A stretch of 57,461 nucleotides of DNA, taken from positions 1-57,461 of the forward strand of contig JAQBPN010000112.1 of the NCBI GenBank assembly GCA_028287505.1, written 5' to 3'. The stretch's first letter is position 1, and every line of letters begins with the position of its first letter. This stretch comes from Fibrobacterota bacterium (lineage in GTDB: Bacteria; Fibrobacterota; Fibrobacteria; UBA11236). The notes beneath the pieces were generated by a model that saw only the letters and a list, made by a program, of their open reading frames with translations, was not told the origin of the DNA and made no database searches. Shown one piece after another: positions 4,315 to 47,327 of the stretch. Both the position numbers and the translations under genes were made by a program.

Positions 4315-6264
<1,950 letters not shown>

Positions 6265-6301
6265 CTAAAGATCGAAATACAGCAAGACCGAAATACCGGA
6301 C

Positions 6302-6601
6302 TCAAACCAACTGGATTTCCTTCACAAGATCCGCGCCCAGTATTTCATTGGCGCGCTTGCGGATGGCATCCCTTTGGAAATGCAACTCGTTGCGCCAGGT
6401 GGCGCTTTCCACCCGTACCTTCAGGGTCCAACCCTTCAGACTTTCGAGCTTGGCGATGGCGGAGGCTTTGGGGCCCATCAGGGTGGCCCAGTTCCCGCGC
6501 AGCTTTTCCTCGTAGATGAGGTGGCCCAGTCCGGCGCGATCCAGCAATCCGCCCAGAACCTGGGAGATGCCCGCCAACTGTCTTCCCGCGCGTTTTGCCA
6601 T
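6302..6601 (-). CDS. dciA: DciA-like DUF721 protein
   Basis: 99 residues. The pattern GxxIYEEKLRGNWATLMGP...A, followed by LKGWTLKVRVESATWRNELHF and a C-terminal helix, fits the DUF721 family. In bacteria lacking DnaC this family (DciA) helps load the replicative helicase DnaB; that role is family knowledge, not shown here. Its position between recF and gyrB is the usual one. An alternative frame upstream (to 6617) is a shadow. Domain call fairly confident, functional transfer less so. Confidence 0.85.
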   Translation of the reverse strand: MAKRAGRQLAGISQVLGGLLDRAGLGHLIYEEKLRGNWATLMGPKASAIAKLESLKGWTLKVRVESATWRNELHFQRDAIRKRANEILGADLVKEIQLV

Positions 6602-6740
6602 CGATTATGCCGGCCACTCTCGCCCGATAATACGCCCGAATTTCCGCCCTTGGCGGTCGCGGGAAAGCCCCTTGCCGAACGTTGTGATTATACCGCTTGG
6701 CGAGGGGTTTCCGCTTGCTTTTTCCAGGCTATGAAAGGTA

Positions 6741-6764
6741 GAAAAATAGCCCGTTCCGGGCTAT
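6741..6764 (-). terminator. Rho-independent terminator after recF
   Basis: On the minus strand, immediately after the recF stop: ATAGCCCG, loop GAA, CGGGCTAT, then TTTTTC. An 8-bp perfect stem with a T run. It implies that dciA-gyrB is transcribed mainly from its own promoter in 6602-6740. Confidence 0.85.
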
Positions 6765-7868
6765 CTAAACGACCACCCTGCCGCGCTGCAAAGTGATGAT
6801 TTTTTCGGCTTGGAAAGGCAGATCCGCGGCCCGGGGATTGGCTATGAAAACCTGGCCTTTGCCCCGGATCATTTCGCCGATGCGGAGCCGCCGGGCCTCG
6901 TCCAGTTCCGCGAACACATCATCGAGAAGCAGGATGGGCGGACGGTGGTTTTTTTGCTCCAGGAGCTCCGCGGAAGCCAGCTTGAGGGAGAGGGCCACCG
7001 AGCGCTTTTGTCCCTGGGATCCGAAGTCCCGCACCGGCTTGCCGGAAAGGAAAAAGGCCAGGTCCTCCCGGTGCGGCCCCGCCAGGGTGAGGCCGGCCTC
7101 GCGTTCTGGGACGCGCATGGCCATGAGCTTGCGCTGGAAATCCTCGCGGATGGCAGCCTCGTCGCCGGCTTCCGAGACGCAACCGGACAGACTCAGGCTC
7201 AAAGCTTCGCCTCCGTCCGAGATGGACCGGTAGCAGGCCTCCGCCAAGGGCGCCAGGTCCGCCAGGGCGCCCCGCCGCATCACGGTGATGCGCGCCCCCG
7301 TTTCCACCAAAGGCGCGTCATAAGCGGCCAGCACGTCGCCGCCGAAGTCGCGGGAGCCCGCGCCCATCTGCTTGAGCAGGCTGTTGCGCTGTTTGAGGGC
7401 CTGGTTGTAATGCCGCAGGGTATCCAGGTAATCCAGGGAAAACTGGCACAGGAGGATGTCCAGGTAGCGCCGGCGGATCTGGGGGCCGGAACGGATCAGA
7501 TCCAGGTCCTCGGGGCTGAAGGAGACCACTTCGAAATGCCCGATCAGGTCCGACAGGCGCTTGCTCTCGCGTCCGTTCACCTTCACGCGCTTGGCCCCCG
7601 TCTCCGTGTACTCCACCGACTGGGCGTGCTCCTGCCCGCCGATGCGGCCCATGACGCGCAATACGAATGCGGTCTGGTTCCACTGGATCAATTCCTTGTC
7701 CTTGCGCGTGCGCTGGGAATGCGCCAGGCACGCGTAATGGATGGCCTCCAGAAGGTTGGTCTTGCCATGGCCGTTGGGACCGGAAAGCAGGTTGAGGCCG
7801 GGACAGAAGGAGATTTCCTGGCTTTCATAATTGCGGAAATGCGTGAGGGAAACGGTCTCGAGATGCAT
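6765..7868 (-). CDS. recF: DNA replication/repair protein RecF
   Basis: SMC-like ATPase that helps load RecA at single-strand gaps. 367 residues from the ATG at 7868. Walker A GPNGHGKT at residues 30-37, ABC signature region FGSQGQKRSVALSL, Walker B ILLLDDVFAELD followed by the D-loop. The start is fixed by overlap: TGATG joins the upstream lipoprotein stop to this ATG, suggesting translational coupling. The long open frame that continues upstream to 8519 is a shadow of that lipoprotein gene. Separation from dnaN, which lies 24 kb away, departs from the classic dnaA-dnaN-recF order. Confidence 0.96.
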   Translation of the reverse strand: MHLETVSLTHFRNYESQEISFCPGLNLLSGPNGHGKTNLLEAIHYACLAHSQRTRKDKELIQWNQTAFVLRVMGRIGGQEHAQSVEYTETGAKRVKVNGRESKRLSDLIGHFEVVSFSPEDLDLIRSGPQIRRRYLDILLCQFSLDYLDTLRHYNQALKQRNSLLKQMGAGSRDFGGDVLAAYDAPLVETGARITVMRRGALADLAPLAEACYRSISDGGEALSLSLSGCVSEAGDEAAIREDFQRKLMAMRVPEREAGLTLAGPHREDLAFFLSGKPVRDFGSQGQKRSVALSLKLASAELLEQKNHRPPILLLDDVFAELDEARRLRIGEMIRGKGQVFIANPRAADLPFQAEKIITLQRGRVVV

Positions 7869-11652: not shown

Positions 11653-12480
11653 ATGATCGACATCTATCAGTATTTCGACTATCGCAAGTTGCTTAAGGAG
11701 CTTTACCAGGAACGCAAAGGCCGGGATCCCAAGTTTTCCTATCGGTATATCTGCCTCAAGACCGGCATCCGTTCGGCGGGATACTTTTCCAACGTGCTGG
11801 CCGGCAAAAGCAACATCTCCCTGAAAGTGGTCCTGAAGCTGTCCCAGCTCTTCGCCCTCAAAAGGGCGGAAGCGGACTACTTCGAATTGCTCGTGCTCTT
11901 CAACCAGGCCAAGACCCACGACGAGAAGAACCTGCTCTTCGATCGCATCCTCAAGGTCAAAAAGTCCAAGATGAAAACCCTGGACGCCAGCTATTACGAA
12001 CTCTTCAGCCATTGGTATTACGTGGCCATCCGCGAAGTGCTGGACTTCTATCCCTTCCGCGGCGATTACCGCGAGCTGGCGCAAATGGTCTCTCCGCCGG
12101 TCACGGCCAAGGAGGCGGAACGTGCCGTGGTGGTGCTGGAAACCCTGGGCCTGATCGGCAAGAACGCCAAGGGCGTGTACGAACGGGTGGAAGCCTTGGT
12201 GACCACGGGCGAGGAAACCCGCTCCATGGCCATCGTGCAATTCCAGAAAACCACTTTGGACCTGGCCAAGCGCGCCTTCGACGCCTTTCCCCTGGAAGCG
12301 CGGGACATTTCCACCCTGACCATCAGCGTTTCCCGCCGCAACTTTCCGAGGATCAAAGAGAAGATCCGCGCATGCCGCCGGGAGATCCTGGAACTGGCCA
12401 AGGCCGATGACGATACCGACACGGTGTTCCACCTGAACATCCTGGCCTTTCCCCTGAGCAAGTGGACTCCCATCGAATGA
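11653..12480 (+). CDS. TIGR02147-family regulator
   Basis: 275 residues starting MIDIYQYFDYRKLLKELYQE, preceded by the ribosome binding site GGGGGCGAAGG, which decides this start over the upstream in-frame ATG at 11584. The N-terminal part is a helix-turn-helix-like region: FSYRYICLKTGIRSAGYFSNVLAGKSNISL, then KVVLKLSQLFALKRAEADYFELLVLFNQA. The remainder is an all-alpha domain including the SxYYELFSHWYYVAIREVLDF motif typical of TIGR02147. The family is a large paralogous group known mainly from Fibrobacter, with a putative DNA-binding role. It overlaps the next gene by ATGA, so it may control or sense that lipoprotein. Confidence 0.9.
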   Translation: MIDIYQYFDYRKLLKELYQERKGRDPKFSYRYICLKTGIRSAGYFSNVLAGKSNISLKVVLKLSQLFALKRAEADYFELLVLFNQAKTHDEKNLLFDRILKVKKSKMKTLDASYYELFSHWYYVAIREVLDFYPFRGDYRELAQMVSPPVTAKEAERAVVVLETLGLIGKNAKGVYERVEALVTTGEETRSMAIVQFQKTTLDLAKRAFDAFPLEARDISTLTISVSRRNFPRIKEKIRACRREILELAKADDDTDTVFHLNILAFPLSKWTPIE

Positions 12481-14357
12481 GAGTTTTTCCCGCATTCACC
12501 GCGGCGTTCGCCGCGCCATTCACCCTGGCTTCGGCCCTGCTGCTGTCCGCCTGTTTCGAAAACAAGCCGGATCAGGTCGCCGGAGGCGGCATCGAAACCG
12601 GAAATACCGGTTCCCTGACGGGCCGCGTGCTGACGGATGCGGGCCGCCCCATCACCCATGCGGACATGATCCTGGCGGAGGTGAAGCTCACCGCCGACGG
12701 GCCGGTAAGCCTGTCCGAGAAGGTCGTGGCCACGGACGATTCCGGCCGCTACCGGTTCGACTCCATGCCGGAAGGACGATACGCCGTCTACGCCCCCGGA
12801 AGGACCGATGGCATGTCGGCGCTCCTCACGCGCATCCACAAGCTCTCGGGAGACCTGGGGCTCCCGGACATGACGGCGCGCGGCACGGTAACCTTGGTGG
12901 GACGTATCCTTCCGGCGGCGGACGAGGACGTGCGCAACACCATGGCCTGCATTCCCGGCGTGGGCCTGTGCGCGCGGCCGGGCCCGGACAGCATTTACCG
13001 CATCTCCGGCGCCCCCCTGGGCAGCTATGAAGCCGTGGTCTTTTCCCGCAGCTCGGTGCAATACGTGGCCCTGGACGTCCGGCCTTCCAACTCCGCCGCC
13101 ACCGGCGGCAGCGACACCGCCTTCATCCGGGACATCGCCGTGGGCGAATCCGCCGAGGACGGCCGGCTTCCCTACACTTTCTATCCCACCGAAATCGAAC
13201 ACAGTTTCACCGGCCTGCCGGTGGCCTATCCGGACAATGCCCAGCCCGCCTGGTACAACAGCAAAGCCTTCGACAGCGTCCGCTACTTCATCCTCAACGA
13301 CGGCAACGCATTCAAGGAGGCGCAGCCGGAGGATTACCTGGCCCAATGGCGCTATTCTTCCGCCTTGCAGGGAGCCTTCGTGGCGGACGCGCCGGATCTG
13401 GCCGCCCCCCTGGCGGGCTTCCCGGTCCCCATCCGTCTCACCGCGCCCCGTTTCGACTTCTCCAAGGCCGCCGCCGACGGCAGCGACCTGGCGGTCTCGG
13501 ACGGCAAGGGCCGCCTGCTTCCCATCGAGATCGAAAGCTGGAATGCCGCCCTCGGCAAAGCGGTCATCTGGGTGCGCCTGGACAGCCTGGCCGCCCGGAA
13601 AAGCGACCGCAACCTGGTGCTGCATTGGGGCCGCGCCCAACCGCTTCCCTTGTCCCAGGGCTCGGGCGTGTTCCGCGCCGACAACGGGTTCGTGGGCGTA
13701 TGGCACTTGGCCGAACGGGGCGACGGCTTCAAGGCCTTCGACGCGCGCGGCGTATTCACGGGCTTCCTGATGGCCATCGGGGATGCGAATCCGGCCACGG
13801 TGCGGTCCGGCGAAGGCGTCTTGGGCGGAGGCTATGCCTTGGACACCACCTCCGGATACGTGAACGTACGGCAACAACCCAGCCTGGACGTGAGCAAGTC
13901 CTTCACCCTGTCCCTGTGGGCCCGGGCCCTCAAGGCGAATCCCGGGCGCGAGCAGGTGCTAGTCTCCAAATGGGAGCCCAACGCGCGGGAATGGCACTTC
14001 CGCGTGCTCCCCAGCGGCGTGCTCGAGCTCGAATTCGGGGATGGCATGGGCCAGATCCAGGGTAACGTCAACAGTACCCAGGCCGTGCCCAACCTCGATC
14101 AATGGCATCACTACGCCGCCGCCTACAACCAGGGTTCCATCCACCTGTACCTGGACGGCAAGGAAGTCTCCGTGCACGTCGCCCAGGGCAGCATACCCCG
14201 GAACGTCCATCTCTTCGAATCGGACATCCATATCGGATCCGACCAGGATCCGGGCATCAGCTGGAAGGGCGATCTCGACGAGTTCGAATACCTGTCGGTG
14301 GCAAAGACCGCGGATTGGATAGCCTCCGTGTACGCCACGCAAAAGCCCGCCCAGTAG
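12477..14357 (+). CDS. DUF2341/LamG-domain surface lipoprotein
   Basis: 626 residues. Lipobox LLLSAC near residue 25. Next comes a CarboxypepD_reg-like domain (TGRVLTDAGRPITHADM...DDSGRYRFDSMPEGRYAVY). A central DUF2341-like segment includes FPVPIRLTAPRFDF...DGSDLAVSDGKGRLLPIEIESW...NLVLHWG. The C-terminal LamG/concanavalin-like domain has SFTLSLWARALK...NLDQWHHYAAAYNQGSIHLYLDGKEV and HIGSDQ. This layout suggests binding of a carbohydrate or cell-surface ligand at the outer membrane. ATG at 12477 overlaps the regulator stop by 4 bases. Fibrobacter genomes often pair such lipoproteins with TIGR02147 genes, from memory. Confidence 0.85.
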   Translation: MRVFPAFTAAFAAPFTLASALLLSACFENKPDQVAGGGIETGNTGSLTGRVLTDAGRPITHADMILAEVKLTADGPVSLSEKVVATDDSGRYRFDSMPEGRYAVYAPGRTDGMSALLTRIHKLSGDLGLPDMTARGTVTLVGRILPAADEDVRNTMACIPGVGLCARPGPDSIYRISGAPLGSYEAVVFSRSSVQYVALDVRPSNSAATGGSDTAFIRDIAVGESAEDGRLPYTFYPTEIEHSFTGLPVAYPDNAQPAWYNSKAFDSVRYFILNDGNAFKEAQPEDYLAQWRYSSALQGAFVADAPDLAAPLAGFPVPIRLTAPRFDFSKAAADGSDLAVSDGKGRLLPIEIESWNAALGKAVIWVRLDSLAARKSDRNLVLHWGRAQPLPLSQGSGVFRADNGFVGVWHLAERGDGFKAFDARGVFTGFLMAIGDANPATVRSGEGVLGGGYALDTTSGYVNVRQQPSLDVSKSFTLSLWARALKANPGREQVLVSKWEPNAREWHFRVLPSGVLELEFGDGMGQIQGNVNSTQAVPNLDQWHHYAAAYNQGSIHLYLDGKEVSVHVAQGSIPRNVHLFESDIHIGSDQDPGISWKGDLDEFEYLSVAKTADWIASVYATQKPAQ

Positions 14358-14393: not shown

Positions 14394-14996
14394 GTGGGGA
14401 CCTTCTTGCGGATTTGCCTGGCATACGGCGCGGCCCTGATCCTCGCTTGCGACGGGAATCTGGACTCCAAAGACTTGACGGCCGTGACCGCGATACCGCA
14501 GGCGGGTCCCAATTGCGCCGGTTGCCATCCCTATCCCGATATCGACTACCAACATTACTCCCACCTCCTCCAGATCGGCCGCAACCACGCCGACAACAGT
14601 CCGGTCACCTGCCTGGACTGCCATGCCACCGCCATCGCATTCACGGAAAGCCCCATCATCGATTCCATTTTCCTGGATTCTTTCGGCGACACCTTGTCCC
14701 TGTTGAATAATCCCTATGACCCTTCCATCCACGGCTATCCCATGCTTCGCGCGGATACGCTACGCCGGCAACTCCCCATCCTCATGCCGGCGCGATCCGG
14801 GGCGATGCCCGGGATCCGGGAGTACGTGACGGCTTTGGCTCATCTCAACATGGTCGTGGACGTGGCTTTCGATTGGCGCTCTTCGGATACGGCGAGGTTT
14901 TCCGGAACCTTCGCCGGTTATGATCGTGAGGAGCAAACCTGTTCCGCCGTAGCCTGCCATGGCGGAAGGCGTATTTACCGCTGGCGGGACCTTTAA
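14394..14996 (+). CDS. Multiheme c-type cytochrome lipoprotein, paralog 1
   Basis: 200 residues with a GTG start. Lipobox LILAC (Cys 19), then heme-attachment motifs CAGCH (41-45) and CLDCH (73-77), and a C-terminal CSAVACH (183-189), a CX4CH type of site known from some multiheme cytochromes of metal-reducing bacteria. Between them lie HYSHL and LAHLN, whose histidines are conserved in all four paralogs and could be distal heme ligands. Likely a periplasm-facing electron carrier. No Shine-Dalgarno is visible; a TAAATTG box ends 5 bases before the GTG, suggesting a very short leader. It is 64 bases ahead of paralog 2 and may be co-transcribed. Confidence 0.85.
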   Translation: MGTFLRICLAYGAALILACDGNLDSKDLTAVTAIPQAGPNCAGCHPYPDIDYQHYSHLLQIGRNHADNSPVTCLDCHATAIAFTESPIIDSIFLDSFGDTLSLLNNPYDPSIHGYPMLRADTLRRQLPILMPARSGAMPGIREYVTALAHLNMVVDVAFDWRSSDTARFSGTFAGYDREEQTCSAVACHGGRRIYRWRDL

Positions 14997-15045
14997 AATC
15001 CCCGTTTCCGTAACATGTTCGGGCGGACAAAGACCAAGCAATTAG

Positions 15046-15053
15046 TAATTTTG
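15046..15053 (+). promoter_or_regulatory. TAnnTTTG-type -7 box before cytochrome paralog 2
   Basis: TAATTTTG matches the Bacteroidota-type -7 consensus TAnnTTTG exactly and ends 8 bases before the ATG at 15062. If used, the transcript would be leaderless or nearly so. Similar but poorer boxes precede the paralogs at 14394 (TAAATTG, 14382-14388) and 20551 (TAATTTTA, 20531-20538). Confidence 0.4.
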
Positions 15054-15061
15054 GGATCGAG

Positions 15062-15745
15062 ATGAACTTCATGCTTTCCGCACGCCGGATCCTCGCCGTC
15101 TCCTTCGGCCTTTTCGCGCTGACGGGCTGCGGCCAATGGAAGGTGGATTCCTCGGAATTGACCGCGCGCTCCGCCTCCACCGGCGCGGGTCCCGACTGCG
15201 CCGGTTGCCACGCATACCCTCTCATGGATCGCAACCACGATTACCATCTGAACAAGACGGCAGTCAACCAGGAGCTGAACGGCAAAATCACCTGCATGGA
15301 TTGCCACAGCCAATCCATCCGGTTCCACGCCATAACCGCCTTCGATTCCGTCTATGAGGATACCACCGGCGAGAGATGGGGAACCCTGGCCCATCCCGGA
15401 CCGGGTGACACCACCGCCGGCGGGACCGTGATCCGCAGCATGGTTTTCGTCAGGGTGGATACGTTGCCGCAGCACCAACCGATTCCCATGGAAGACCGGC
15501 CGGGAGCCGCCCCGAAATTCCAGGAATACATCACGGGCCTGGCGCATATGAACAACAAGGTGGACGTGGTTTTCGACAGCCGTAATTCGCGGCCGGATGA
15601 ATTCGAAGGGGATTCGGCTTCTTACAATCCGACCCAGGAAACCTGCTCCGCGGTGGCATGCCATCCCGGTCCCAAGATCTATAGCTGGGGCTCCGTCGCC
15701 AAGGGCCTGCCGGAACTGAAAGACAAAGACCCGGGGAATCCATGA
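15062..15745 (+). CDS. Multiheme c-type cytochrome lipoprotein, paralog 2
   Basis: 227 residues. Lipobox LTGC (Cys 23) followed by GQWKVDSSELTA, a post-lipobox motif shared with paralogs 3 and 4. Heme motifs CAGCH (46-50), CMDCH (78-82) and CSAVACH near residue 195. Conserved histidines lie in NHDYHL and LAHMN, and QHQPIP and a VDVVFD strand are also shared. The stop overlaps the DUF4266 gene by ATGA, and that gene overlaps the DUF3570 gene, so three products are translationally coupled and probably work together at the cell envelope. Function as an electron carrier is inferred from the heme sites; the partner is unknown. Confidence 0.88.
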   Translation: MNFMLSARRILAVSFGLFALTGCGQWKVDSSELTARSASTGAGPDCAGCHAYPLMDRNHDYHLNKTAVNQELNGKITCMDCHSQSIRFHAITAFDSVYEDTTGERWGTLAHPGPGDTTAGGTVIRSMVFVRVDTLPQHQPIPMEDRPGAAPKFQEYITGLAHMNNKVDVVFDSRNSRPDEFEGDSASYNPTQETCSAVACHPGPKIYSWGSVAKGLPELKDKDPGNP

Positions 15746-16002
15746 CCATGAAACGCATCCCTTTAGAAATCCTCCTCCGCTTGTTCCTCTCCGGCATTTT
15801 TCTTTCCGGCCTGTTGATGGCCGCGGGCGCCGCTCTTTCCGGCTGCGCCATGGTCCACCAGAAGGATCGCGAATTCCTCAGCGACCCCATCATGCAACGC
15901 ACGCCCGATCCGTTGGGCGCCTCCATGGAAGGCCATAATCTTCCGCGACGGGAAGGCTCGTCGGGCGGAAGCTCCGGCTCCGGCGGCGGATGCGGATGCT
16001 GA
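15742..16002 (+). CDS. DUF4266 small lipoprotein, copy a
   Basis: 86 residues. Signal peptide with lipobox LSGC (Cys 35), then KDREFLSDPIMQRTPDPLGA, the family's hallmark, a short linker with HNLPRREGSSGG, and a Gly/Ser-rich tail ending CGC. DUF4266 proteins are known to neighbour DUF3570 outer-membrane proteins, thioredoxins and often ApbE flavin transferases; their role is not established. The two terminal cysteines could bind metal or form disulfides with the TlpA encoded downstream. Overlaps the upstream cytochrome by 4 bases and the DUF3570 gene by 7 or 13 bases. Confidence 0.88.
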   Translation: MTMKRIPLEILLRLFLSGIFLSGLLMAAGAALSGCAMVHQKDREFLSDPIMQRTPDPLGASMEGHNLPRREGSSGGSSGSGGGCGC

Positions 16003-17174
16003 AGTTCCTTGCGGTCCTTTTATGCGGACTTGCCGCCGTTCCCCCGGCCGTGCTCGCCTCCGAATCCGACAACGGTCTGGACTTCAAGTACCTGTACTAC
16101 TGGGATCGCAACGGCGTCTGGAACCATACGCCCGCCTTCGCCTATTTCCGGAAGATAGCCGCGAACTGGAAACTCCAATGGGATCAGGAATTCGACGGGG
16201 TTTCCGGCGCATCCCGACGGCTCGGCTTGCGGAACATCGGCCGCCTGGCCGACAATGATCTGAAATTGGACGGCATCAGCGGCGCGTCCAAACGCGAAAT
16301 CAGGCATTCCGAACAGGCCACGGCCGCCTATGCCAACCAGGGCCGCAATGCTTCCGCCTCCTTTTATTTCAGCGATGAAAACGATTACCGATCCTACTCG
16401 CCTTCCGTGTCCGGATCGATGGACTTCAACGAACGCAATACCACCTTGAGCGGCGCCGCGGCCGAGTTTTTCGACGACCTGCATCCCACCGGCCCCTTTA
16501 CGGGACTGGGCGGCAAACGGAATATCCTTTCCCTCACCGGTTCTTTGGCCCAGATTTTCACGCCCTTGACCCTGGGCGCCGTCACCGCCAACGTGATCCA
16601 CAGCTCCGGACGCCTGGGGCATCCTTACAATCCCGTCCTCACCTCGCAAGGGACCTTGTTGCTGGAAAACCTACCGGATAGAAAGACCAGCGTCGCCCTG
16701 TCCGGGCAGATCATCCAGGGCTTCCATATCCTGGACCGCCTGGGCTCGGTGCGCCTCGACGCGCGTTATTATCGCGACGATTGGCAGCTCGTATCCGGCA
16801 CCGCCGACTTCCAGTGGTACCAATACATTCTGGAAAATACCTACCTGAGATTGCGCGCGCGCGGGTACCGGCAGGGTGCCGCCGCCTTCGCGAAAGCGGC
16901 CTATGAAGGCAATGAAGTCTATCGCACTCCGGATATCCGTTACTTCGATTTTTCTTCGCTCACTTTGGGCCTCAAGATCGGATCCGTTTTTCCGGAAAGC
17001 TGGGGCGGATCCGCCCTGCTTCCGGATCGATGGGATATCAGTTATGATCACGGCATGACCGATACCCAAGGGGAGGAGGACGGCGTCCGTCCCGCATACC
17101 ATTATCAATTGTTTCCGAACGACGAGTATTACGTCCAGGGAACCCTGATGGTGGGTCTCTCCTTCGACCTGTGA
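15990..17174 (+). CDS. DUF3570 outer-membrane protein, copy a, with twin DxxSGAS motifs
   Basis: 394 residues. Signal peptide (cleavage near VLASES) and a beta-barrel-like body with many Tyr/Phe-rich strands, ending FDL. The sequence DGVSGAS at 69-75 and DGISGAS at 94-100 repeats with a 25-residue period. Both match the D-x-x-S/T-G-A-S/T consensus at which ApbE attaches FMN in other proteins, so flavinylation is possible (inference). Conserved blocks FSDENDYRSYSPSVSGS and YHYQLFPNDEYYVQGT recur in copy b. The ATG at 15990 or 15996 overlaps the DUF4266 stop; 15996 aligns with the GTG of copy b. Confidence 0.88.
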   Translation: MRMLKFLAVLLCGLAAVPPAVLASESDNGLDFKYLYYWDRNGVWNHTPAFAYFRKIAANWKLQWDQEFDGVSGASRRLGLRNIGRLADNDLKLDGISGASKREIRHSEQATAAYANQGRNASASFYFSDENDYRSYSPSVSGSMDFNERNTTLSGAAAEFFDDLHPTGPFTGLGGKRNILSLTGSLAQIFTPLTLGAVTANVIHSSGRLGHPYNPVLTSQGTLLLENLPDRKTSVALSGQIIQGFHILDRLGSVRLDARYYRDDWQLVSGTADFQWYQYILENTYLRLRARGYRQGAAAFAKAAYEGNEVYRTPDIRYFDFSSLTLGLKIGSVFPESWGGSALLPDRWDISYDHGMTDTQGEEDGVRPAYHYQLFPNDEYYVQGTLMVGLSFDL

Positions 17175-17192
17175 CCTGCCGGCCCGCGCTTT

Positions 17193-17879
17193 TCAGCGCA
17201 GGGACATCCACGTATGCGTTTTGACCTGATCGCCCGCCCTGAGCTTGAACACCAGGGATCCGGAGGCTGCGCCCAGGCGGTTTGAGAATACCGACAGCGA
17301 GTGGGTGCCGGAACCGTAGTTCCCCTGGATCAAGGTGGCCAGGAGCCGCCCCTGGGTATCGAAGGCCTGGAGCAGGACGGCCCGGCTTTCAGCCAGACCA
17401 AACGTTACATCCACGTTACGGGTTTCCGGATTGAAATCCAGGGAGATCGGGTCCGTTGCGCCGGCAGGGGACGCGATGGCCGTGGAAGCCTTGACCGTGA
17501 GGGCGCCGCTAACCAGGATCCAGGGAGACTCGCCTCCGGGTTTGGATGCGTTCTGATCCGTGCATGGGCCGCTTTGGCAAATCCGGAATTTTCCATTGGC
17601 CGTCGCCATGGTGCCGGGAACGGTCCATTTGAACATGTCGCTTTTCTGGGTATCGGTGAAACCGGTTTTGATGTTGGTCCAGGTGCTTCCCCCGTCCTTG
17701 GAAAAAGCGATATCGATTCCCTTGCCATGGGTTTCTTCGACATTCCAGGTGATCGACACCGATTGCCCCACCGTCAGGGTTTCACCGCCGGCGGGCAGCA
17801 GGGATCCCGCGCTGAGATGCGCATGCGTCATCCCGGCGGCCAGAAAAACGAGACCCGAAAGATTTTTCCAGTTCATCAT
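17193..17879 (-). CDS. Secreted protein with predicted mature N-terminal His, paralog a
   Basis: 228 residues; SD AGAGGAG before the start. The signal peptide ends GMTHA at residue 20, leaving mature His1-Leu-Ser-Ala-Gly. The N-terminal domain carries GGETLTVG, His31, FSKDGGSTWT, FKWTVPGT and RICQSGPC, an Ig-like beta fold vaguely like Kre9/KNH1-type modules. The C-terminal part (ETRNVDVTF...LLQAFDTQGRLLATL...HSLSVFSNRL...FKLRAGD) resembles FlgD-like or type IX secretion tails. His1 and His31 are conserved, without gaps, in the three paralogs, a pattern compatible with a copper histidine brace (inference). A TATATTGG box lies about 60 bases upstream of the start. Confidence 0.8.
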   Translation of the reverse strand: MMNWKNLSGLVFLAAGMTHAHLSAGSLLPAGGETLTVGQSVSITWNVEETHGKGIDIAFSKDGGSTWTNIKTGFTDTQKSDMFKWTVPGTMATANGKFRICQSGPCTDQNASKPGGESPWILVSGALTVKASTAIASPAGATDPISLDFNPETRNVDVTFGLAESRAVLLQAFDTQGRLLATLIQGNYGSGTHSLSVFSNRLGAASGSLVFKLRAGDQVKTHTWMSLR

Positions 17880-18021
17880 GCTATGCTCCTCTTTCGAAAT
17901 CCGGACGATCCATGCTGACGGGGCACGGAGTCCTCAGGCACCCAATATATCCCATCGGAATGGGATTCGCCCGTTGCCGGGCCATCTTTTAGTTCACAGG
18001 TGAGAACTTCGCTTCTTCCCA

Positions 18022-18055
18022 GAAAACAAAAAAGGGACGCCCATGGCGTCCCTTT
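18022..18055 (-). terminator. Rho-independent terminator for the 18084-18797 gene
   Basis: On the minus strand: AAAGGGACGCC, loop ATG, GGCGTCCCTTT, followed by TTTGTTTTC. An 11-bp perfect stem with a strong T run, 28 bases beyond the stop codon. Confidence 0.9.
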
Positions 18056-18083
18056 CACATGCTTTGAAAAAAGCGGGGTTCGT

Positions 18084-18797
18084 TCAGCGGATTCCGTTCC
18101 AGGTATGGGATTGGACCTGATTGCCGACCTTGAGCTTGAAGATCAGGGAGTTCCCCGAAGCGTCCAGCCGGTTGGAGAACAGGGAAAGCTTATGGTTCCC
18201 GGCCGCGAAGTCACCTTGGACCAGGGTCGCCAACAGGCGGCCTTGGGTGTCGAAGGCCTGCAGCAGGACCGGCTTGCTTTCGGAAAGGCCGAAAGAAACA
18301 TCCACGTTACGGGTCTCGGGGCGGAAGTCCACCGTAAAAGCTCCCGATGCGGCGGAAACGGAATGGATGCCGGTGCTCGACCCAATGGTGAATGCGCTGG
18401 TGACCAGCACATAATTGCCATTGGGGGCGCTGGTGAGCGAATTGGTGTTGTCCGCGTCCGCGCAGGCTTTCACGGTGCCGCCGTCGTGCTGGCAGATGCG
18501 GATTTTCGCGGTCGCGGTGGCGGTTCCGGCAACGGTCCAGTTGAAGCTGTTGTCGCCCTGCGCGTCGTTGAAATTCTCCTTGATGGTGGTCCAAGTGCTG
18601 CCGCCATCGGTGGAAAGGTCGATGTTCGTACCCTTCGCGTGGTTGAACTGTTCCTTCCAGGTAATCTTATAGGTGGCGCCAACGCTCAATGCTTCGCCCG
18701 CAGTAGGCTTCAGTCCGTCCGCGAACAAATGCGCGCTCGCCATGCCGGCGGCCGTCATTACTACCAAACCTGCCCGAAGCCAATTCTTATTCAACAT
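18084..18797 (-). CDS. Secreted protein with predicted mature N-terminal His, paralog b
   Basis: 237 residues; SD AAGGAG 8 bases before the ATG. The signal peptide ends AGMASA at residue 22, so the mature chain starts HLFADGLKP. His31 falls in FNHAKG, at exactly the same mature position as in the other paralogs. Shared blocks: GEALSVG, STDGGSTWTTIKENF, FNWTVAGT, RICQ with a second Cys after a 9-residue insert (KAC), and the C-terminal tail PETRNVDVSFGLSES...LLQAFDTQGRLLATL...LFSNRLDASG. Predicted to be exported; surface delivery by a type IX-like route is possible but unproven. Its own terminator follows, so it is probably monocistronic. Confidence 0.82.
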   Translation of the reverse strand: MLNKNWLRAGLVVMTAAGMASAHLFADGLKPTAGEALSVGATYKITWKEQFNHAKGTNIDLSTDGGSTWTTIKENFNDAQGDNSFNWTVAGTATATAKIRICQHDGGTVKACADADNTNSLTSAPNGNYVLVTSAFTIGSSTGIHSVSAASGAFTVDFRPETRNVDVSFGLSESKPVLLQAFDTQGRLLATLVQGDFAAGNHKLSLFSNRLDASGNSLIFKLKVGNQVQSHTWNGIR

Positions 18798-19046
18798 AAT
18801 CCCGTCTCCTTTTCAGTGGGTTTTCCCCGGCACTCCGACTCGCAAATTGAACCATTTGCCAGCCCCTCCCCGGCTTTATCCTGGCTCGCGATCAGGTCAA
18901 ATCGACCCCACCGCAATCGCATTTGTCTCCCGTGGCGGAAAAGCGTTACAGTCGATTTCGCTTTTTTCCATCCGGCTCCGACGCGCCCAATCCCCCGGTA
19001 CCGCGGAAATCCGGCGTCCCGGGCAAAGGTTTTTAGCTTTTATCCA

Positions 19047-19685
19047 ATGCGGGGTTTTCTGAGGCACATCCTATTCGCGGCATGCGTAAGCCTGGTTTTC
19101 GCTTGCGGCGAGTGGAAAATGGGTTCCACGGAGCTAACGGCCCATTCCACGGCTGCGCAAACGGGTCCGGATTGCGCAAGCTGCCATGGTTACCTCCTTA
19201 ACGATTCCAACCACTTGTTCCACCTGCTCAAAGCCGACAGCAATAAGGCCGTCAACGGGTCGGTCACCTGCCTGGATTGCCACTCCACCGCCATCGCCTT
19301 TCGGGTGTCGCCTATCCTGGACTCGATCTTTGTCGATTCGTTCGGCGGCACATGGTCTTCCCTGGACTATCCCAAAAGCGCCGGCATCCGGGCCTTCCGG
19401 CTGGAGCGGGTGGATACCGTGCAGCAACACCGGCCCATCCCTTTGCCCGCCAGACCGGGCGCGAAACCGCTCTACCAGGAATACGTCACGGCTTTGGCGC
19501 ATTGCAACAATGTGGTGGATGTGGTCTTTGATTCCCGGATAACGGATTCGGTGAAGTATTCCGGCGCTCAGGCGCGGTACGACGCGAAACAGCAGACCTG
19601 TTCCGCGGTAGCCTGCCACGAGCGGGAGAACCCCTATCGATGGGCGGCGCCATCGAAGGGATTATCGGGGTTGAAAGGGGATTAG
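19047..19685 (+). CDS. Multiheme c-type cytochrome lipoprotein, paralog 3
   Basis: 212 residues from the ATG at 19047; the frame stays open far upstream (to 18000) but that part is antisense to paralog b. Lipobox LVFAC (Cys 20), then GEWKMGSTELTA, CASCH (43-47), CLDCH (75-79) and CSAVACH near residue 189. NHLFHL and LAHCN carry the conserved non-motif histidines. QQHRPIPLPARPG matches paralog 4 closely. It stands alone, flanked by two minus-strand His1 genes, without its own DUF4266/DUF3570 partners, so it looks like a detached third copy. Its stop overlaps the 3' end of the convergent gene at 19682 by 4 bases. Confidence 0.87.
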   Translation: MRGFLRHILFAACVSLVFACGEWKMGSTELTAHSTAAQTGPDCASCHGYLLNDSNHLFHLLKADSNKAVNGSVTCLDCHSTAIAFRVSPILDSIFVDSFGGTWSSLDYPKSAGIRAFRLERVDTVQQHRPIPLPARPGAKPLYQEYVTALAHCNNVVDVVFDSRITDSVKYSGAQARYDAKQQTCSAVACHERENPYRWAAPSKGLSGLKGD

Positions 19686-20362
19686 CGCAGGGTGTTGAAC
19701 AAGCGCGTGTAGGTCTCGCCGCCCACGGTAAGCTTGAACATCAAATGCCCGGATGCCGCGTCCAGCGCGTTGGAGAACAGGGAGAGGTGGTGGACGCCGG
19801 CTTCCTGAGAGCCGTCCAGCAGGGTGGCCAGGACTTGGCCGCGCGCATCGAATACCTGCAAGGTCACCTTTTCCGCCGAACTCAGTTCGAATGAGGTTTC
19901 CAGGCTGCGGGTTTCGGGGCTATAAGTCATAGAGGGGGCGGTCGCCGAAGCGGTTCCGACCGCGCCGATGCCGGTGCCCGCCGCTACGACGGTGAATGCG
20001 CCGCTTTTAAGAATGTAGATGGGATCGGTGCATTCCCCGCCGGCCAATTGGCAAGCCCGGAACATCCCCTGGGCGGTCACCGAATTGGGCACGGTCCAAT
20101 TGTAGGTAACCGTCGCGCCGTCTTCCTTCGGTCCCTGGAAGTTGCCGATGATTTCCGTCCAGGCGGTCCCGTTATTTTTGGAGAAATAGAAATCGTATTT
20201 CCCGTTATTGTGCCCTACAGTCTGCACGAGGGTCACTTTGACGATCTGGCCGACCGTAAAGGTTTCGCCGCCATGGATGCTCAATGAGCCTTGCTCCAAG
20301 TGGGCGGCGGCGAGCGATGCGATGGAGAGAGTGACGATCAGGCAAGATTTCAGATAGTTCAT
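19682..20362 (-). CDS. Secreted protein with predicted mature N-terminal His, paralog c
   Basis: 226 residues from the ATG at 20362, preceded by SD AGGAAA; an upstream in-frame start at 20413 is less likely. The signal peptide ends SLAAA at residue 20, giving mature HLEQGSLSIHGGETFTVG. His31 is conserved (VGHNNG), then FSKNNGTAWTEI, YNWTVPNS and RACQ...C. The C-terminal tail (YSPETRSLETSFELSSAEKVTLQVFDARGQVLATLLDG...HHLSLFSNALD) matches that of paralogs a, b and the 24489 protein. It is the most diverged of the three. A TATATTC box near 20426-20434 may be its promoter. Confidence 0.8.
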   Translation of the reverse strand: MNYLKSCLIVTLSIASLAAAHLEQGSLSIHGGETFTVGQIVKVTLVQTVGHNNGKYDFYFSKNNGTAWTEIIGNFQGPKEDGATVTYNWTVPNSVTAQGMFRACQLAGGECTDPIYILKSGAFTVVAAGTGIGAVGTASATAPSMTYSPETRSLETSFELSSAEKVTLQVFDARGQVLATLLDGSQEAGVHHLSLFSNALDAASGHLMFKLTVGGETYTRLFNTLR

Positions 20363-20550
20363 ATTTGTTTCCTGGATAGGGATTCGAACCAAGGGTAACC
20401 CACCGAAACCCATGCGGTTGCCCTAGAATATATTCCCAAACAGGCCGTTCCACCATGCACCAGAAGGAAAACCGTTTCAAAGAAAGAAATGCCGGCTTCC
20501 GGTTTCCGCTTGAAGAACGGCCGGATTTGTTAATTTTATAGCTTTTCCCC

Positions 20551-21216
20551 ATGGATCCGGGATACCGCATCATTGCCATCGCCTCGCTGACAGGCCTACT
20601 GATGGCCTGCGGCGAGTGGAAAGCCGATTCCTCCGGGTTGACCGCCCGTACCGCTGCGCCCGTCGAGAGCGCCAATTGCGCCAGTTGCCATGGGTATCCC
20701 CTGCAGGATACCAATCACGTTTTCCATTTGTTCCATACCGATGAGAACAAGCGCTTCAATGGGCCGATTACCTGCCTGGACTGCCATAACCGATCACTCC
20801 AGTACGACATCGTAACCCTGGTGGATACCATTTACGTCGATACCACGGACTCCTTTCCCGGCAATTGGTCCACCGTCGACTTTCCCGACCGGGACCCGCG
20901 CCTCACCTTCGAGGACACCATCCGTACCTTCACGATCAAGCGCATCGATACCTTGCATCAGCACCGGCCCATTCCCCTTCCCGAGCGACCCGGCCCGCCC
21001 ACCAGCTTCACCGAATACGTGACCGGGCTTGCCCACTTGAACGGCGCCATCGATGTCGAGTTCGATCCCAAAATCTCCGATGTCGCGCGCTTCGGTGGAG
21101 AGAAGGCCGGGTTCAACCCCACGGAAGAAACGTGCTCGGCGGTAGCCTGCCACCCCGGAGACAAACCGTATCGCTTCGCCGCGCCTTCCAAGCACTTGCC
21201 CGAGATGAAAGAATAG
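20551..21216 (+). CDS. Multiheme c-type cytochrome lipoprotein, paralog 4
   Basis: 221 residues. Lipobox LLMAC (Cys 20), GEWKADSSGLTA, CASCH (43-47), CLDCH (75-79) and CSAVACH near residue 190. Conserved histidines lie in NHVFHL and LAHLN. It opens the second complete cassette: nine bases separate it from the DUF4266 gene, and the DUF3570 and tlpA genes follow. Heme attachment and lipid anchoring are read from the motifs; the reaction served is unknown. No convincing Shine-Dalgarno precedes the ATG. Confidence 0.88.
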   Translation: MDPGYRIIAIASLTGLLMACGEWKADSSGLTARTAAPVESANCASCHGYPLQDTNHVFHLFHTDENKRFNGPITCLDCHNRSLQYDIVTLVDTIYVDTTDSFPGNWSTVDFPDRDPRLTFEDTIRTFTIKRIDTLHQHRPIPLPERPGPPTSFTEYVTGLAHLNGAIDVEFDPKISDVARFGGEKAGFNPTEETCSAVACHPGDKPYRFAAPSKHLPEMKE

Positions 21217-21225
21217 GAGACGGAT

Positions 21226-21456
21226 ATGATCCATCGCATCCTCTCCCTCGCATTGGCGGGGACTTCCGTTCTGATGCTCGGCGCCTCCTTGCAAGGTTGC
21301 GCCGCAGTGGCCCAAAAGGATCGGGAGTACCTCAGCGATCCCATCATGCAGCGCACTCCGGACGAATTGGGATCGGGGATGGAAAGCCATAACCTGCCCC
21401 GCCGGGAAGGATCTTCGGGGGGCAGTTCAGGGTCGGGCGGAGGCTGCGGGTGCTGA
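21226..21456 (+). CDS. DUF4266 small lipoprotein, copy b
   Basis: 76 residues. Lipobox LQGC (Cys 25), KDREYLSDPIMQRTPDELGS, HNLPRREGSSGGSS and the terminal CGC. The C-terminal 50 residues are nearly identical to copy a at 15742, whereas the signal peptides differ, showing selection on the mature part. SD AGGAG overlaps the upstream stop codon. The stop overlaps a GTG start for the DUF3570 gene (GTGCTGA), the same arrangement as in copy a (ATGCTGA). Confidence 0.88.
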   Translation: MIHRILSLALAGTSVLMLGASLQGCAAVAQKDREYLSDPIMQRTPDELGSGMESHNLPRREGSSGGSSGSGGGCGC

Positions 21457-22646
21457 GATCCATGGGCGCCAGATCCTTGCTCGTCGTCTGCGGCTTCATG
21501 GCCGTGGCGCCACCAAACCCCGCCGCCGCTTCCGGCGCCGACAACGGCCTGGAAATGAAATACATGTATTACTGGGATCGCAATGGCGTCTGGAACCATA
21601 CCCCCGCGATTGAGTTCTTCAAGAAGCTATCGACCACTTGGAAGTTCCAGTGGAACCAGGAACTGGACGCGGTTTCCGGAGCATCGCGGCGCCTGGGTCT
21701 GCGCAACATCGGCCGCCTCGGCGATCATGACGCGGAATTGGACGGCATTTCCGGCGCCTCGAAGCGGGAGCTCCGCCATTCGGAGCAGGCAGCGGCTGTC
21801 TATTCCAATCAGGGACGCGTCGGTTCCGGGTCCCTCTACTTCAGCGACGAAAACGATTACCGGTCCTATTCGCCCTCCTTCTCCGGTTCCTGGGACTTCA
21901 ATGATCGAAACACCACCTTGGGGGGCGGCGCCGCGTTCTTTTTCGACGACTTCAGGCCCCGCGCCCCGTTCCAGGGACTGGGCGGGAAACGCACTATCGC
22001 GTCCTACACCGCCACCATTGCCCAAGCGGTTACGCCTCTCTCGCTGGCCGGCCTGACCGTGAACGCCATTCACAGTTCCGGTTACCTGGGACACATGTAC
22101 AATCCCGTCATCACGTCCGGGGGATCCGCCATTCAGGAAAACCTCCCGCGACTCAAGAACAGCGTGGCCGTTTCAGGGCAATTCATCCAAGGTTTCCACA
22201 TCGGCGAACGGCTGGGTTCCGTCCGGCTGGAAGCGCGGCACTACCGCGACGATTGGAAATTGGTTTCAAACACCGCGGATTTGCAATGGTACCAATACCT
22301 GACGGAAGGAACCTATTTCCGGCTTCGCGCCCGCGGCTACCGTCAGGACGCGGCCGCCTTCGCCAAAGATGCCTACGCGGGCGATGAGATCTACCGCTCG
22401 CCGGATGTCAGATATTACAAATTCTCAGCACTCACCTTGGGTCTCAAAGTGGGTTCGGTTTTTCCGGACAGCTGGGGCGAGTCGGCTTTACTGCCGGATC
22501 GCTGGGATATCGGCTATGACCATGGGGTTCGGGACACCAAGGGCGAAATGGATGGCGTTAACCCCCTGTACCATTACCAACTTTACTCGCCGAATGAGTA
22601 TTATATCCAAGGCACCTTCATGGCCGGACTCGGTTTCGATTTTTGA
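21450..22646 (+). CDS. DUF3570 outer-membrane protein, copy b, with twin DxxSGAS motifs
   Basis: 398 residues from GTG 21450; the ATG at 21462 is an alternative. A signal peptide is followed by a barrel-like body closely matching copy a throughout. Motifs DAVSGAS (73-79) and DGISGAS (98-104) keep the 25-residue spacing seen in copy a, so both potential FMN-attachment sites survive in both copies. Other shared blocks are YYWDRNGVWNHTPA, FSDENDYRSYSPSFSGS and LGLKVGSVFPDSWGESALLPDRWDI. The stop is followed 11 bases later by tlpA. No apbE gene is in the window; it would have to lie elsewhere if flavinylation occurs. Confidence 0.88.
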   Translation: MLRSMGARSLLVVCGFMAVAPPNPAAASGADNGLEMKYMYYWDRNGVWNHTPAIEFFKKLSTTWKFQWNQELDAVSGASRRLGLRNIGRLGDHDAELDGISGASKRELRHSEQAAAVYSNQGRVGSGSLYFSDENDYRSYSPSFSGSWDFNDRNTTLGGGAAFFFDDFRPRAPFQGLGGKRTIASYTATIAQAVTPLSLAGLTVNAIHSSGYLGHMYNPVITSGGSAIQENLPRLKNSVAVSGQFIQGFHIGERLGSVRLEARHYRDDWKLVSNTADLQWYQYLTEGTYFRLRARGYRQDAAAFAKDAYAGDEIYRSPDVRYYKFSALTLGLKVGSVFPDSWGESALLPDRWDIGYDHGVRDTKGEMDGVNPLYHYQLYSPNEYYIQGTFMAGLGFDF

Positions 22647-22657
22647 AAAGGAAGCAA

Positions 22658-23155
22658 ATGCGTTCGATCGTATCCACCCTAGGCCTCTCCGTCTTCCTGG
22701 CCGCGGCCCTTTCCGTATCCGCCGCCGAACCGAAATCCATTCCCGCGTTCTCGCTTCCCGATCTCGAAGGCAAAATCCATGACTCCAAGGAGTGGAAGGG
22801 CAAAGTGGTCGTCCTCGATTTCTGGGCCACCTGGTGCACGGGATGCCGGGCCACCATCCCGGTCATGGAGCGTTTGCAGGAAAAGTTCGGACCGCAGGGA
22901 CTGGTGGTCAACGGAGTGAGCGTGGACAAAGGGCCCAAGGAGAAGGTCGCCAAGTTCGCCCGTAAAATGAAGATGGGCTATCGGATCCTTTGGGACTCGG
23001 AGGACACCTTATCCAAACAGCTCGGCTTCCAAGGCCTACCCTCCGTCTACGTGTTCGGACGGGACGGCGCCCTGCTCAAGGCCATGCCGGAATACACGCC
23101 CGCGCAGGAAAAGGAAATGGAAGCCCTGGTGGAAGGCCAGTTCCAGGCCAAATAG
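22658..23155 (+). CDS. TlpA-family thioredoxin-like protein
   Basis: 165 residues from the ATG at 22658, preceded by SD AAGGAAG; an in-frame TTG at 22643 is less likely. Signal peptide ending near SVSAAE, then a thioredoxin fold of the TlpA/ResA type with active site FWATWCTGCRATIPVM (CTGC near residue 55) and cis-Pro region GLPSVYVFGRDG. Such proteins reduce disulfides in the periplasm, including apocytochrome CxxCH sites and copper-site cysteines. Directly downstream of DUF3570 copy b, it is the expected thioredoxin partner of DUF3570/DUF4266 clusters. Target could be the cytochromes, the CGC tails, or both. Confidence 0.9.
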   Translation: MRSIVSTLGLSVFLAAALSVSAAEPKSIPAFSLPDLEGKIHDSKEWKGKVVVLDFWATWCTGCRATIPVMERLQEKFGPQGLVVNGVSVDKGPKEKVAKFARKMKMGYRILWDSEDTLSKQLGFQGLPSVYVFGRDGALLKAMPEYTPAQEKEMEALVEGQFQAK

Positions 23156-24488: not shown

Positions 24489-24902
24489 TCAGCGGGGGCG
24501 GGAATGCGTCTCGGCCAGCACGGCCTGTCCGGCCCGCAGCCGGAAAATCACGTGGCCTTGATAGCCTTGGAGGCGATTGGAAAAAAGCGAGAGATGGTGG
24601 AATCCCGATCCCTGGTTTCCGTCCAACAGGGTGGCCAAGAGCTTGCCCTGGGTGTCGAATGCCAGCAGGGAGACGCGCGCGCCCTCTTCGATCCCGAAGG
24701 TAACCTCCAAGCTACCTGCTCCCGCGTCGAACCGCATGCTGGGGGCGAAATACGCTCCGTGATCGGCGGGCGCCGAAATGGAACCTGCCGAGGCCGGAAG
24801 GCTCGTTCCCGTGTTGAGGGCCAGCAATCCCGGGACCTCATCGGCTGCGGCCATCCCCGCGGTTCCAAGCAAAATCAGGATCCACGATTTGAAGCTGGGC
24901 AT
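24489..24902 (-). CDS. Small secreted protein consisting mainly of a secretion-type tail
   Basis: 137 residues: a signal peptide (ILLGTAGMAAAD), a short linker of about 50 residues, then the same C-terminal domain as the His1 paralogs (LEVTFGIEEGARVSLLAFDTQGKLLATLLDG...HHLSLFSNRLQGYQG...FRLRAG). The His1-type N-terminal domain is absent. SD GGGGAGG precedes the ATG, and a TATATTTG box (24956-24963 region, minus strand) fits the FCB -7 consensus. It may be a degenerate paralog, an adhesin stub or a separate small surface protein; function unknown. Confidence 0.7.
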   Translation of the reverse strand: MPSFKSWILILLGTAGMAAADEVPGLLALNTGTSLPASAGSISAPADHGAYFAPSMRFDAGAGSLEVTFGIEEGARVSLLAFDTQGKLLATLLDGNQGSGFHHLSLFSNRLQGYQGHVIFRLRAGQAVLAETHSRPR

Positions 24903-31872: not shown

Positions 31873-32991
31873 TTATTGTCCGTCTTTCAGAATCCGCAAC
31901 GGCATCACGATGAAGAAGTAGTTCGGCTTTTCCATCACCGGTTCCACGATGATGGCGCCCAGGGGATTGTTGAACTTGAATTGGACTTCCTCGGTATGGA
32001 TGAGGCGGAACACTTCCAACACGTAGTTGGCGTTGATACCCACCTCCACCGCCTCGCCGGTGTATTCCACGGGCAGGGATTCCTCGGAGTCGCCGCCCAG
32101 ATCCTGGTTCTTGGCCGAGAGCGCCAATTGGCGCTCCTGGAAACCGAAAACCACCAGCTTGGTCTTGGCATTGGCCATGGTGGCCACGCGGCGGATCACG
32201 GAGCCGAGATGTTCGCGGTTTCCCTTCATCTTCTTGGAGAAGTCCTTGGGAATCACGTTCTCGTAATTCGGGTAAGGGCCTTCGATCAGTTTCGTGAAGA
32301 TGACGATCGTTTCCGTGGAGAAGCGCGCGTTGGCGGGGCCGATTTCCACCTGGATGATCTGTTCCGGGTCCTCGGACATGCGCAGTATTTGCGACAAGGC
32401 CTTGGGCGGCAGGATTACGCCGGGCTGGGTAGGCAGGCCGGAAGCGGCCGTCCAGGCCTTGCCCAGGCGGTGTCCATCGGTGGCGACCATTTGCAGGTTG
32501 CCTTCCTTGAACTCGCAATAAGCCCCGGTCAGGCTCATGCGGCTGTAATCGGTGGAGACGGCGAAGGTGGTCTTCTCGCCCAGGAAACGGAAATCCTTGA
32601 TGGGGATGTTGAAGGATTTGGCCGCCCCCAGATCCGGAAGGGCCGGATATTCGCTGGCATCGAAACCGGTCAGATTGCACTGGAAGCCGGATTCGGATTT
32701 GATGGTCACGATGTATTCGTCGACGGAGAGCAGGACCGGGAAATCGGGGAGCTCTTTGACCACTTCCAGGAGCTTTTTGGAATTGATGACGATTTCGCCG
32801 TCCTCATGGCCTTCCACCTGCAAACGCAGCACGATGGTCATGTCCAGATCCGTGGCCCGGATTTCCAAGGTGTTGCCTTCCAGCTTCAGCAACAAATTGT
32901 ACAGGATCTGCAAGGTGGTTTTGGTGGGCGACGCATTGCTGGCCATTTGCAGGGCGTCCAGGAAAACCGGCTTGTTGGCTTCGAACTTCAT
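31873..32991 (-). CDS. dnaN: DNA polymerase III beta sliding clamp
   Basis: 372 residues from the ATG at 32991 (MKFEANKPVFLDALQMASNA); SD AAGGGACGG upstream. The frame that continues to 33198 is rejected because it would overlap the fabV start and the homology begins at MKF. Clamp hallmarks: RATDLDMTIVLRL, FPVLLSVDEY, LTGAYCEF, VATDGHRLGKA and the C-terminal YFFIVMPLRI. It encircles DNA and tethers the replicative polymerase. dnaA is not adjacent, and fabV lies divergently upstream. Confidence 0.97.
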   Translation of the reverse strand: MKFEANKPVFLDALQMASNASPTKTTLQILYNLLLKLEGNTLEIRATDLDMTIVLRLQVEGHEDGEIVINSKKLLEVVKELPDFPVLLSVDEYIVTIKSESGFQCNLTGFDASEYPALPDLGAAKSFNIPIKDFRFLGEKTTFAVSTDYSRMSLTGAYCEFKEGNLQMVATDGHRLGKAWTAASGLPTQPGVILPPKALSQILRMSEDPEQIIQVEIGPANARFSTETIVIFTKLIEGPYPNYENVIPKDFSKKMKGNREHLGSVIRRVATMANAKTKLVVFGFQERQLALSAKNQDLGGDSEESLPVEYTGEAVEVGINANYVLEVFRLIHTEEVQFKFNNPLGAIIVEPVMEKPNYFFIVMPLRILKDGQ

Positions 32992-35930: not shown

Positions 35931-35959
35931 TTTATGATGGACTAGGCATTTCGGGAGCT

Positions 35960-36003: not shown

Positions 36004-36034
36004 ATTTTAGATGGACTAGGCTCCTCGGGAGATA

Positions 36035-45130: not shown

Positions 45131-45136
45131 TTTCCA

Positions 45137-47326: not shown

Positions 47327-47327
47327 G

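Follow-up and report, generated by a model that had tools for sequence, protein, structure and literature searches.

We describe a locus in the phylum Fibrobacterota that, as we read it, specifies an ApbE/DUF3570-type module for electron transfer outside the cytosol, extended in this phylum by a multihaem lipoprotein, a reading to which we assign a probability of about 0.7. The locus occupies positions 14,394 to 23,155 of a contig of 57,461 nucleotides (JAQBPN010000112.1, assembly GCA_028287505.1), referred to here as the window; the genome to which it belongs, G000, comprises 6.07 Mb and is 98.7% complete. Two cassettes with the order trihaem lipoprotein-DUF4266-DUF3570 are accompanied by two further trihaem lipoproteins and by three secreted proteins on the minus strand, here called His1, while a TlpA-type thioredoxin is present in cassette 2 only. 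An earlier note, made from the sequence alone, had listed precisely these genes, and we confirm that the set is genuine, with all named genes at the positions given in Table 1. The coupling by overlapping codons that it saw in cassette 1 is also there: the cytochrome and DUF4266 genes share an ATGA, and DUF4266 and DUF3570 overlap by 7 to 13 nt.

A probable flavin-based core of a known type

Judged by its domains and motifs, the cassette core is a member of the previously described electron-transfer system of ApbE, DUF3570, DUF4266 and thioredoxin. Each DUF3570 protein of the window carries two D-x-x-S-G-A-S motifs spaced 25 residues apart, a feature absent from the earlier note; in a set of 18 homologs, no substitution is seen at the D and GAS of site one or at the D and A of site two. 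Such a double site was shown by Meheust et al. (PMC8238504) to be flavinylated by ApbE in the DUF3570 protein of Chlorobium luteolum, and its near invariance supports the electron transfer at the outer envelope that the note had suggested. In the passages of that paper devoted to the DUF3570/DUF4266 system, the clusters contain ApbE, DUF3570, a thioredoxin-like protein, a DUF4266 protein ending in CXC and, in many cases, DsbD (316 clusters without DsbD are counted, making it optional), and the function of the system is called uncertain. A literature search for DUF3570 or DUF4266, which left out most subscription journals, found this paper alone.

Set against those passages, our locus shares DUF3570 with two [S/T]GA[S/T] sites, the C-terminal CXC of DUF4266 (both window proteins terminate in GGGCGC) and a thioredoxin-like protein, with the set completed by DsbD and ApbE encoded at other places in this genome or in relatives. 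It differs in gene order (DUF4266-DUF3570-TlpA here, TlpA-DUF4266-DUF3570-ApbE there), in beginning with a multihaem lipoprotein, and in placing two cassettes and two extra cytochromes side by side without ApbE or DsbD. The thioredoxins differ as well, those of the described clusters being PF13899 thioredoxin-like, whereas the window protein is of the TlpA/AhpC-TSA type (PF00578 and PF13905), with PF13899 not among the listed matches. No cytochrome of the present kind is named in the paper's passages on the DUF3570/DUF4266 system. The lead cytochrome found across the phylum, the different order of the genes and the doubling of the locus together set it apart as a previously undescribed variant within the published system.

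The only ApbE of G000 is encoded on contig 126, outside the window, and we therefore claim membership for the DUF3570/DUF4266/thioredoxin core rather than for a complete ApbE-bearing cluster. Since the genome encodes this single ApbE and no FMN_bind protein, DUF3570 is likely to be an ApbE substrate. Among the ApbEs compared from outside the genus, the closest is that of G162, a genome of the same family, at 47% identity. Elsewhere, contig 58 of G000 holds a third, divergent DUF4266...DUF3570 cluster, also seen in G159, with a gene inserted between the two and a single SGAS motif.

Trihaem lipoproteins with invariant extra histidines

The earlier note had described the cytochromes as CX4CH lipoproteins. 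A CSAVACH (CX4CH) motif is indeed present in each of them, although this description is incomplete in that each also contains two CX2CH motifs and thus three haem motifs in all. The four window cytochromes are paralogs with 56 invariant columns, and each starts with a lipobox-type N-terminus. Beyond the haem-binding cysteines and histidines, H56, H59 and H162 are invariant among 21 cytochrome homologs; these would suffice for bis-His ligation, supplying a second axial histidine to all three haems. Cytochrome c assembly proteins are encoded in G000.

The nearest described family appears to be that of the CxxxxCH/CxxCH cytochromes of Geobacter (TIGR01904), whose model spans only the C-terminal part of our proteins. 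Of the three cytochromes scored, cytA and cytD lie just above its curated cut-off of 27 (27.5 and 28.8) and cytB below it (21.1). While the CX4CH motif is common to both, the proteins described here differ in being lipoproteins with two CX2CH motifs and one CX4CH motif and in their three invariant extra histidines. A profile search of the PDB with the cytochrome gave nothing beyond weak local matches to nitrite reductases and to designed cytochrome b562 proteins.

Additional trihaem cytochromes of the same family occur without a DUF3570 gene of their own (L123, L124, L125, L126 and L048:8093-8908). Three of them adjoin a secreted protein similar to the one with an fn3 domain in the contig-90 cluster of G000, and one adjoins a TIGR02147-like pair.

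A lead cytochrome across the phylum

The earlier note had placed cytochromes and His1 proteins alongside DUF3570 and DUF4266, and the co-occurrence check was run with our own scan of open reading frames (ORFs) with hidden Markov models, without curated annotation; all neighborhood counts given here derive from it. For the cytochromes the association extends through the phylum. Of 168 Fibrobacterota genomes, 13 have DUF3570; 10 of these, and no others, have the trihaem cytochrome, a pairing that is not due to chance (naive P = 8e-14, ignoring relatedness).

DUF3570 clusters in Fibrobacterota come in two main gene orders. Order A is multihaem lipoprotein-DUF4266-DUF3570, often with TlpA next; where a gene upstream of DUF4266 is visible, the cluster starts with a multihaem lipoprotein-like ORF in 22 of 23 cases. 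These lead lipoproteins have two to five haem motifs, with three in nearly all except those of distant genera. The most complete example, in G162, reads cytochrome-DUF4266-DUF3570-TlpA-DsbD-ApbE-NusG_II-Gx transporter, and contig 90 of G000 repeats this order minus ApbE. Order B, TlpA-DUF4266-DUF3570, has no lead lipoprotein of this kind; each genome in which it is found in the genus of the window has a single copy. Outside the phylum, none of 10 clusters read has a lead multihaem lipoprotein, and 8 of them show order B, several followed by ApbE. The named records matched by the cytochrome were Fibrobacterota metagenome-assembled genomes only, in a search with a single peptide pattern whose reach is limited to close relatives. 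The lead multihaem lipoprotein is a new feature of this cluster order in Fibrobacterota.

The order-B clusters of the genus mostly stand beside a large lipoprotein that carries a pair of CxxCH motifs; the only one scanned, in L033, matches the middle domain of hydrazine synthase alpha.

The two orders bear on an alternative role for the thioredoxin. TlpA, together with the DsbD of the other cluster copy, might serve cytochrome c maturation in the manner of ResA and CcdA, reducing the cysteines of the CX2CH and CX4CH motifs instead of feeding flavins. Among NCBIfam models the protein is indeed nearest to ResA (73.8 bits, below cut-off), and three-haem substrates are encoded in the same module. 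Yet thioredoxin, DUF4266 and DUF3570 occur together without a multihaem lipoprotein both outside the phylum and in order B, and we regard this alternative as improbable.

A proposed route from thiols to haems

The best-supported reading is an envelope relay from thiols through flavins to haems. Reducing equivalents would exit the cytoplasm via a DsbD-type protein, such as that encoded with the contig-90 copy of the cassette, and pass to the TlpA-type thioredoxin and on to the C-terminal CXC of the DUF4266 lipoprotein. From there they would move to DUF3570 at the outer membrane, with its two covalently bound flavin mononucleotides, and finally to the trihaem lipoproteins, which would deliver them to an acceptor at or beyond this membrane. 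The attachment of flavins and haems, the direction of flow, the location and the acceptor are predicted here; gene content and order, the motifs and the co-conservation across the phylum are read directly from sequence.

Several observations weigh against this relay. Neither ApbE nor DsbD is encoded within the window, and G157, a congeneric genome that is 95% complete, shows no ApbE despite four DUF3570 loci. One order-A cluster, on contig 47 of G158, lacks the cytochrome. For the cytochrome, AlphaFold gave a model too poor to use (mean predicted local distance difference test score, 57), so that the haem geometry is putative, and that DUF3570 and the lipoproteins sit in the outer membrane is something we infer. 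A multihaem partner that is phylum-wide and nearly constant at the head of the operon is a concrete candidate for the downstream component of DUF3570/DUF4266 systems, and uncultured Fibrobacterota gain a testable function.

The earlier note spoke of a duplicated module, which is accurate for an old duplication and not for a recent one. In the DUF3570 tree the two window copies stand apart, cassette 1 grouping with G158, G157 and G156, and cassette 2 with G159; identities to the sister-genome copies are 75% for cassette 1 and 78% for cassette 2, in different genomes. Recent tandem duplication is rejected by the failure of the two copies to group together; instead, their grouping with other genomes makes it appear that the duplication predates these species and was followed by differential retention. 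The locus is flanked by recF/gyrB and dnaN in G000, G156, G157, G158 and G159.

His1: secreted proteins with a probable metal site

The three minus-strand proteins are paralogs, each with a predicted mature N-terminal histidine. Cleavage sites were assigned by eye; of the 15 full members of the family, 14 have small-x-A|H or a comparable pattern. This histidine and a second one, mostly about 30 residues further on, are both kept in 14 of the 15 members, while in the remaining one (L041:12016-12657) Q and R replace them; related Ig (immunoglobulin) repeats elsewhere mostly lack the two residues. Two histidines that are kept together or lost together, one of them N-terminal, are as expected of a histidine-brace metal site, and His1 are probably metal-binding secreted proteins of this kind. 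For the metal handling considered in the earlier note, this coupled conservation provides indirect support only.

The structure model of His1 has two beta-sandwich domains, the first weakly Kre9/KNH-like and the second resembling FlgD_ig or sorting domains. Foldseek with this model retrieved nothing more specific than pairs of Ig domains in antibody light chains, and at most an Ig-like fold is assigned from the model. In their predicted N-terminal histidine, second histidine and Ig-like beta-sandwich, His1 proteins are similar to AfAA11A (7p3u, PMC8668981), CopC (PMC7529816), and DUF6702 and Ang-1/2 (PMC12537917); known here from sequence, they differ from these histidine-brace proteins in the small, weakly Kre9/KNH-like Ig domain and in the FlgD_ig/sorting-type domain that follows it.

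One might ask whether His1 capture metal, acting as surface binders of copper or nickel in the manner of CopC, DUF6702 or "anglerase" proteins, with the flavin-haem chain reducing Cu2+ or Fe3+ so that the metal can be taken up or detoxified. The joint presence or absence of the two histidines fits this picture, Ig-fold metal binders with an N-terminal histidine have been published (PMC12537917), and the passages of PMC8238504 mention an iron transporter in some DUF3570 clusters elsewhere. We nevertheless consider it unlikely, as no metal transporter or sensor was recognized at the locus and no genome outside the genus has His1 beside the cassette.

A further alternative would extend the chain to copper: flavinylated DUF3570, trihaem lipoproteins and His1 would form one relay in which cellular thiols drive extracellular copper chemistry, His1 acting like the copper oxygenases known as lytic polysaccharide monooxygenases (LPMOs). 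It would work much as cellobiose dehydrogenase feeding an LPMO, with unrelated parts. A profile of the His1 Ig domain has as its top PDB match the AA11 LPMO AfAA11A (7p3u, E = 3.8e-5), the second histidine falling on the copper ligand His71; reduction of bacterial LPMOs by a c-type cytochrome, CjX183 of Cellvibrio japonicus Cbp2D, has been published (PMC8981238); and haem-copper oxidases encoded in G000 make O2 chemistry possible. With Cbp2D, which has no flavinylated DUF3570, we see a likeness in the idea of an extracellular haem protein feeding a copper protein and claim no relation in sequence. On the other side, a control profile of Ig repeats without the histidines also matches 7p3u (E = 0.026), which weakens the kinship with AA11, an SxDxGxTW Asp-box contributes to both scores, and a single His1 sequence gave no match to 7p3u. 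These three results lead us to claim a probable metal site and not membership in the LPMOs. The His1 domain of about 115 residues is moreover small for an LPMO, and G000 has no LPMO_10 protein. We thus hold both the copper relay and its parallel with cellobiose dehydrogenase to be highly improbable. If the His1 proteins do bind copper, a single gene cluster would bring together extracytoplasmic redox sites of three kinds, based on flavin, haem and copper.

The link between His1 and the cassette is confined to the genus. In five of the six genomes of this genus the cassette locus has His1 genes at its sides, and 13 of the 15 full members are found no more than a few kb away from a cassette with cytochrome and DUF3570, spread over these five genomes. 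In the sixth, G155, one His1 gene stands beside dnaN without a cassette and another lies elsewhere, and no His1 gene was found beside cassettes in genomes outside the genus. Co-occurrence of His1 with the cassette, as put forward in the earlier note, therefore holds within the genus and not beyond it, and a phylum-wide link is rejected.

Such a distribution would also arise if His1 were mere neighbors of the cassette, that is, adhesin-like surface proteins that conserved gene order keeps next to dnaN and that have no functional tie to the cassette. Their position on the strand opposite the cassette, the G155 gene beside dnaN, the absence of the pairing outside the genus and the place of the Ig domain in a large Kre9/KNH-like, adhesin-type superfamily all point this way; the 13 members clustered with cassettes over five genomes argue in the other direction. 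We give this explanation somewhat less than even odds. The association itself is real, and it may reflect shared position rather than shared function, which is compatible with the favored thiol-flavin-haem reading of the cassette.

Gene layout and surroundings

Table 1. Features of the locus and its surroundings (positions refer to the window unless a locus label is given)
Feature	Position	Strand	Evidence or remark
cytA, trihaem c-type cytochrome lipoprotein	14394..14996	+	CAGCH, CLDCH, CSAVACH; GTG start; TIGR01904 27.5 bits
cytB, trihaem lipoprotein, first gene of cassette 1	15062..15745	+	haem motifs; ATGA overlap with DUF4266
DUF4266 lipoprotein, cassette 1	15742..16002	+	PF14086 50.2 bits (cut-off 27), E 5e-13; C-terminal GGCGC (CXC)
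DUF3570, cassette 1, predicted outer-membrane protein	15990..17174	+	PF12094 105 bits (cut-off 25), E 5e-30; DGVSGAS, DGISGAS
His1a, secreted; Ig-like domain and C-terminal FlgD_ig/sorting-type domain	17193..17879	-	predicted mature N-terminal His, second His
His1b, His1a paralog	18084..18797	-	sequence comparison and model
cytC, trihaem lipoprotein, stand-alone	19047..19685	+	haem motifs, paralogy
His1c, His1 paralog	19682..20362	-	sequence comparison
cytD, trihaem lipoprotein, first gene of cassette 2	20551..21216	+	TIGR01904 28.8 bits (cut-off 27)
DUF4266 lipoprotein (CXC), cassette 2	21226..21456	+	PF14086 E 3.4e-13
DUF3570, cassette 2	21450..22646 (ATG alternative 21462)	+	PF12094 at 21513-22475, E 2.8e-30; DAVSGAS, DGISGAS
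TlpA/ResA-type thioredoxin (WCTGC), cassette 2	22643 (or 22658)..23155	+	PF00578 E 1.7e-23; NCBIfam ResA/TlpA below cut-off
His1-family gene, C-terminal domain only, without His domain	24489..24902	-	kept at same locus in sister genomes
TIGR02147/DUF4423 regulator-like gene	11653..12480	+	TIGR02147 288 bits
TAnnTTT(G)-like elements	15042-15061, 19030-19046, 20530-20550		upstream of cytB, cytC, cytD
Origin-region gene stretches	4315-7868, 31873-32991, 43736-51512		gyrB/recF/dnaN/mnmE/yidC/rnpA/rpmH/parA/parB-like
GGAGTT...AACTCC palindromes	4281-4301, 35877-36089, 39968-39990, 45074-45203		
Order-B cluster of the genus beside dihaem lipoprotein	L033:9184-13338		relatives L042, L043, L047, L052
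Divergent DUF4266...DUF3570 cluster	L034:7749-10730		also L053

Beyond the three His1 genes that the earlier note reported, a fourth gene of the family lies at 24489-24902. On the other side, the locus is adjoined by a pair consisting of a TIGR02147 regulator and a LamG lipoprotein (11653-14357). Order-A cassettes in relatives and on further contigs likewise have TIGR02147-like genes next to them, and this recurrence suggests a regulatory role.

A TAnnTTT(G)-like element starts 12 to 16 bases 5' of the ATG of cytB, cytC and cytD, where no clear Shine-Dalgarno sequence is seen; it is similar to the -7 element of Bacteroidetes-type promoters, and the leader would be very short. Unlike these three cytochrome genes, the His1 genes have purine-rich Shine-Dalgarno-like sites. 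A sigma-70 scan detected no promoter.

The window also contains gyrB-, recF- and dnaN-like genes together with mnmE/yidC/rnpA/rpmH- and parA/parB-like genes, named by reading the sequence, which places the locus within the replication-origin region. GGAGTT...AACTCC palindromes are scattered through the window, two of them within longer tandem units having CTCCACGCTCGTCGCG in common, and possibly constitute a repeat similar to REP (repetitive extragenic palindromic) elements near the replication-origin genes.

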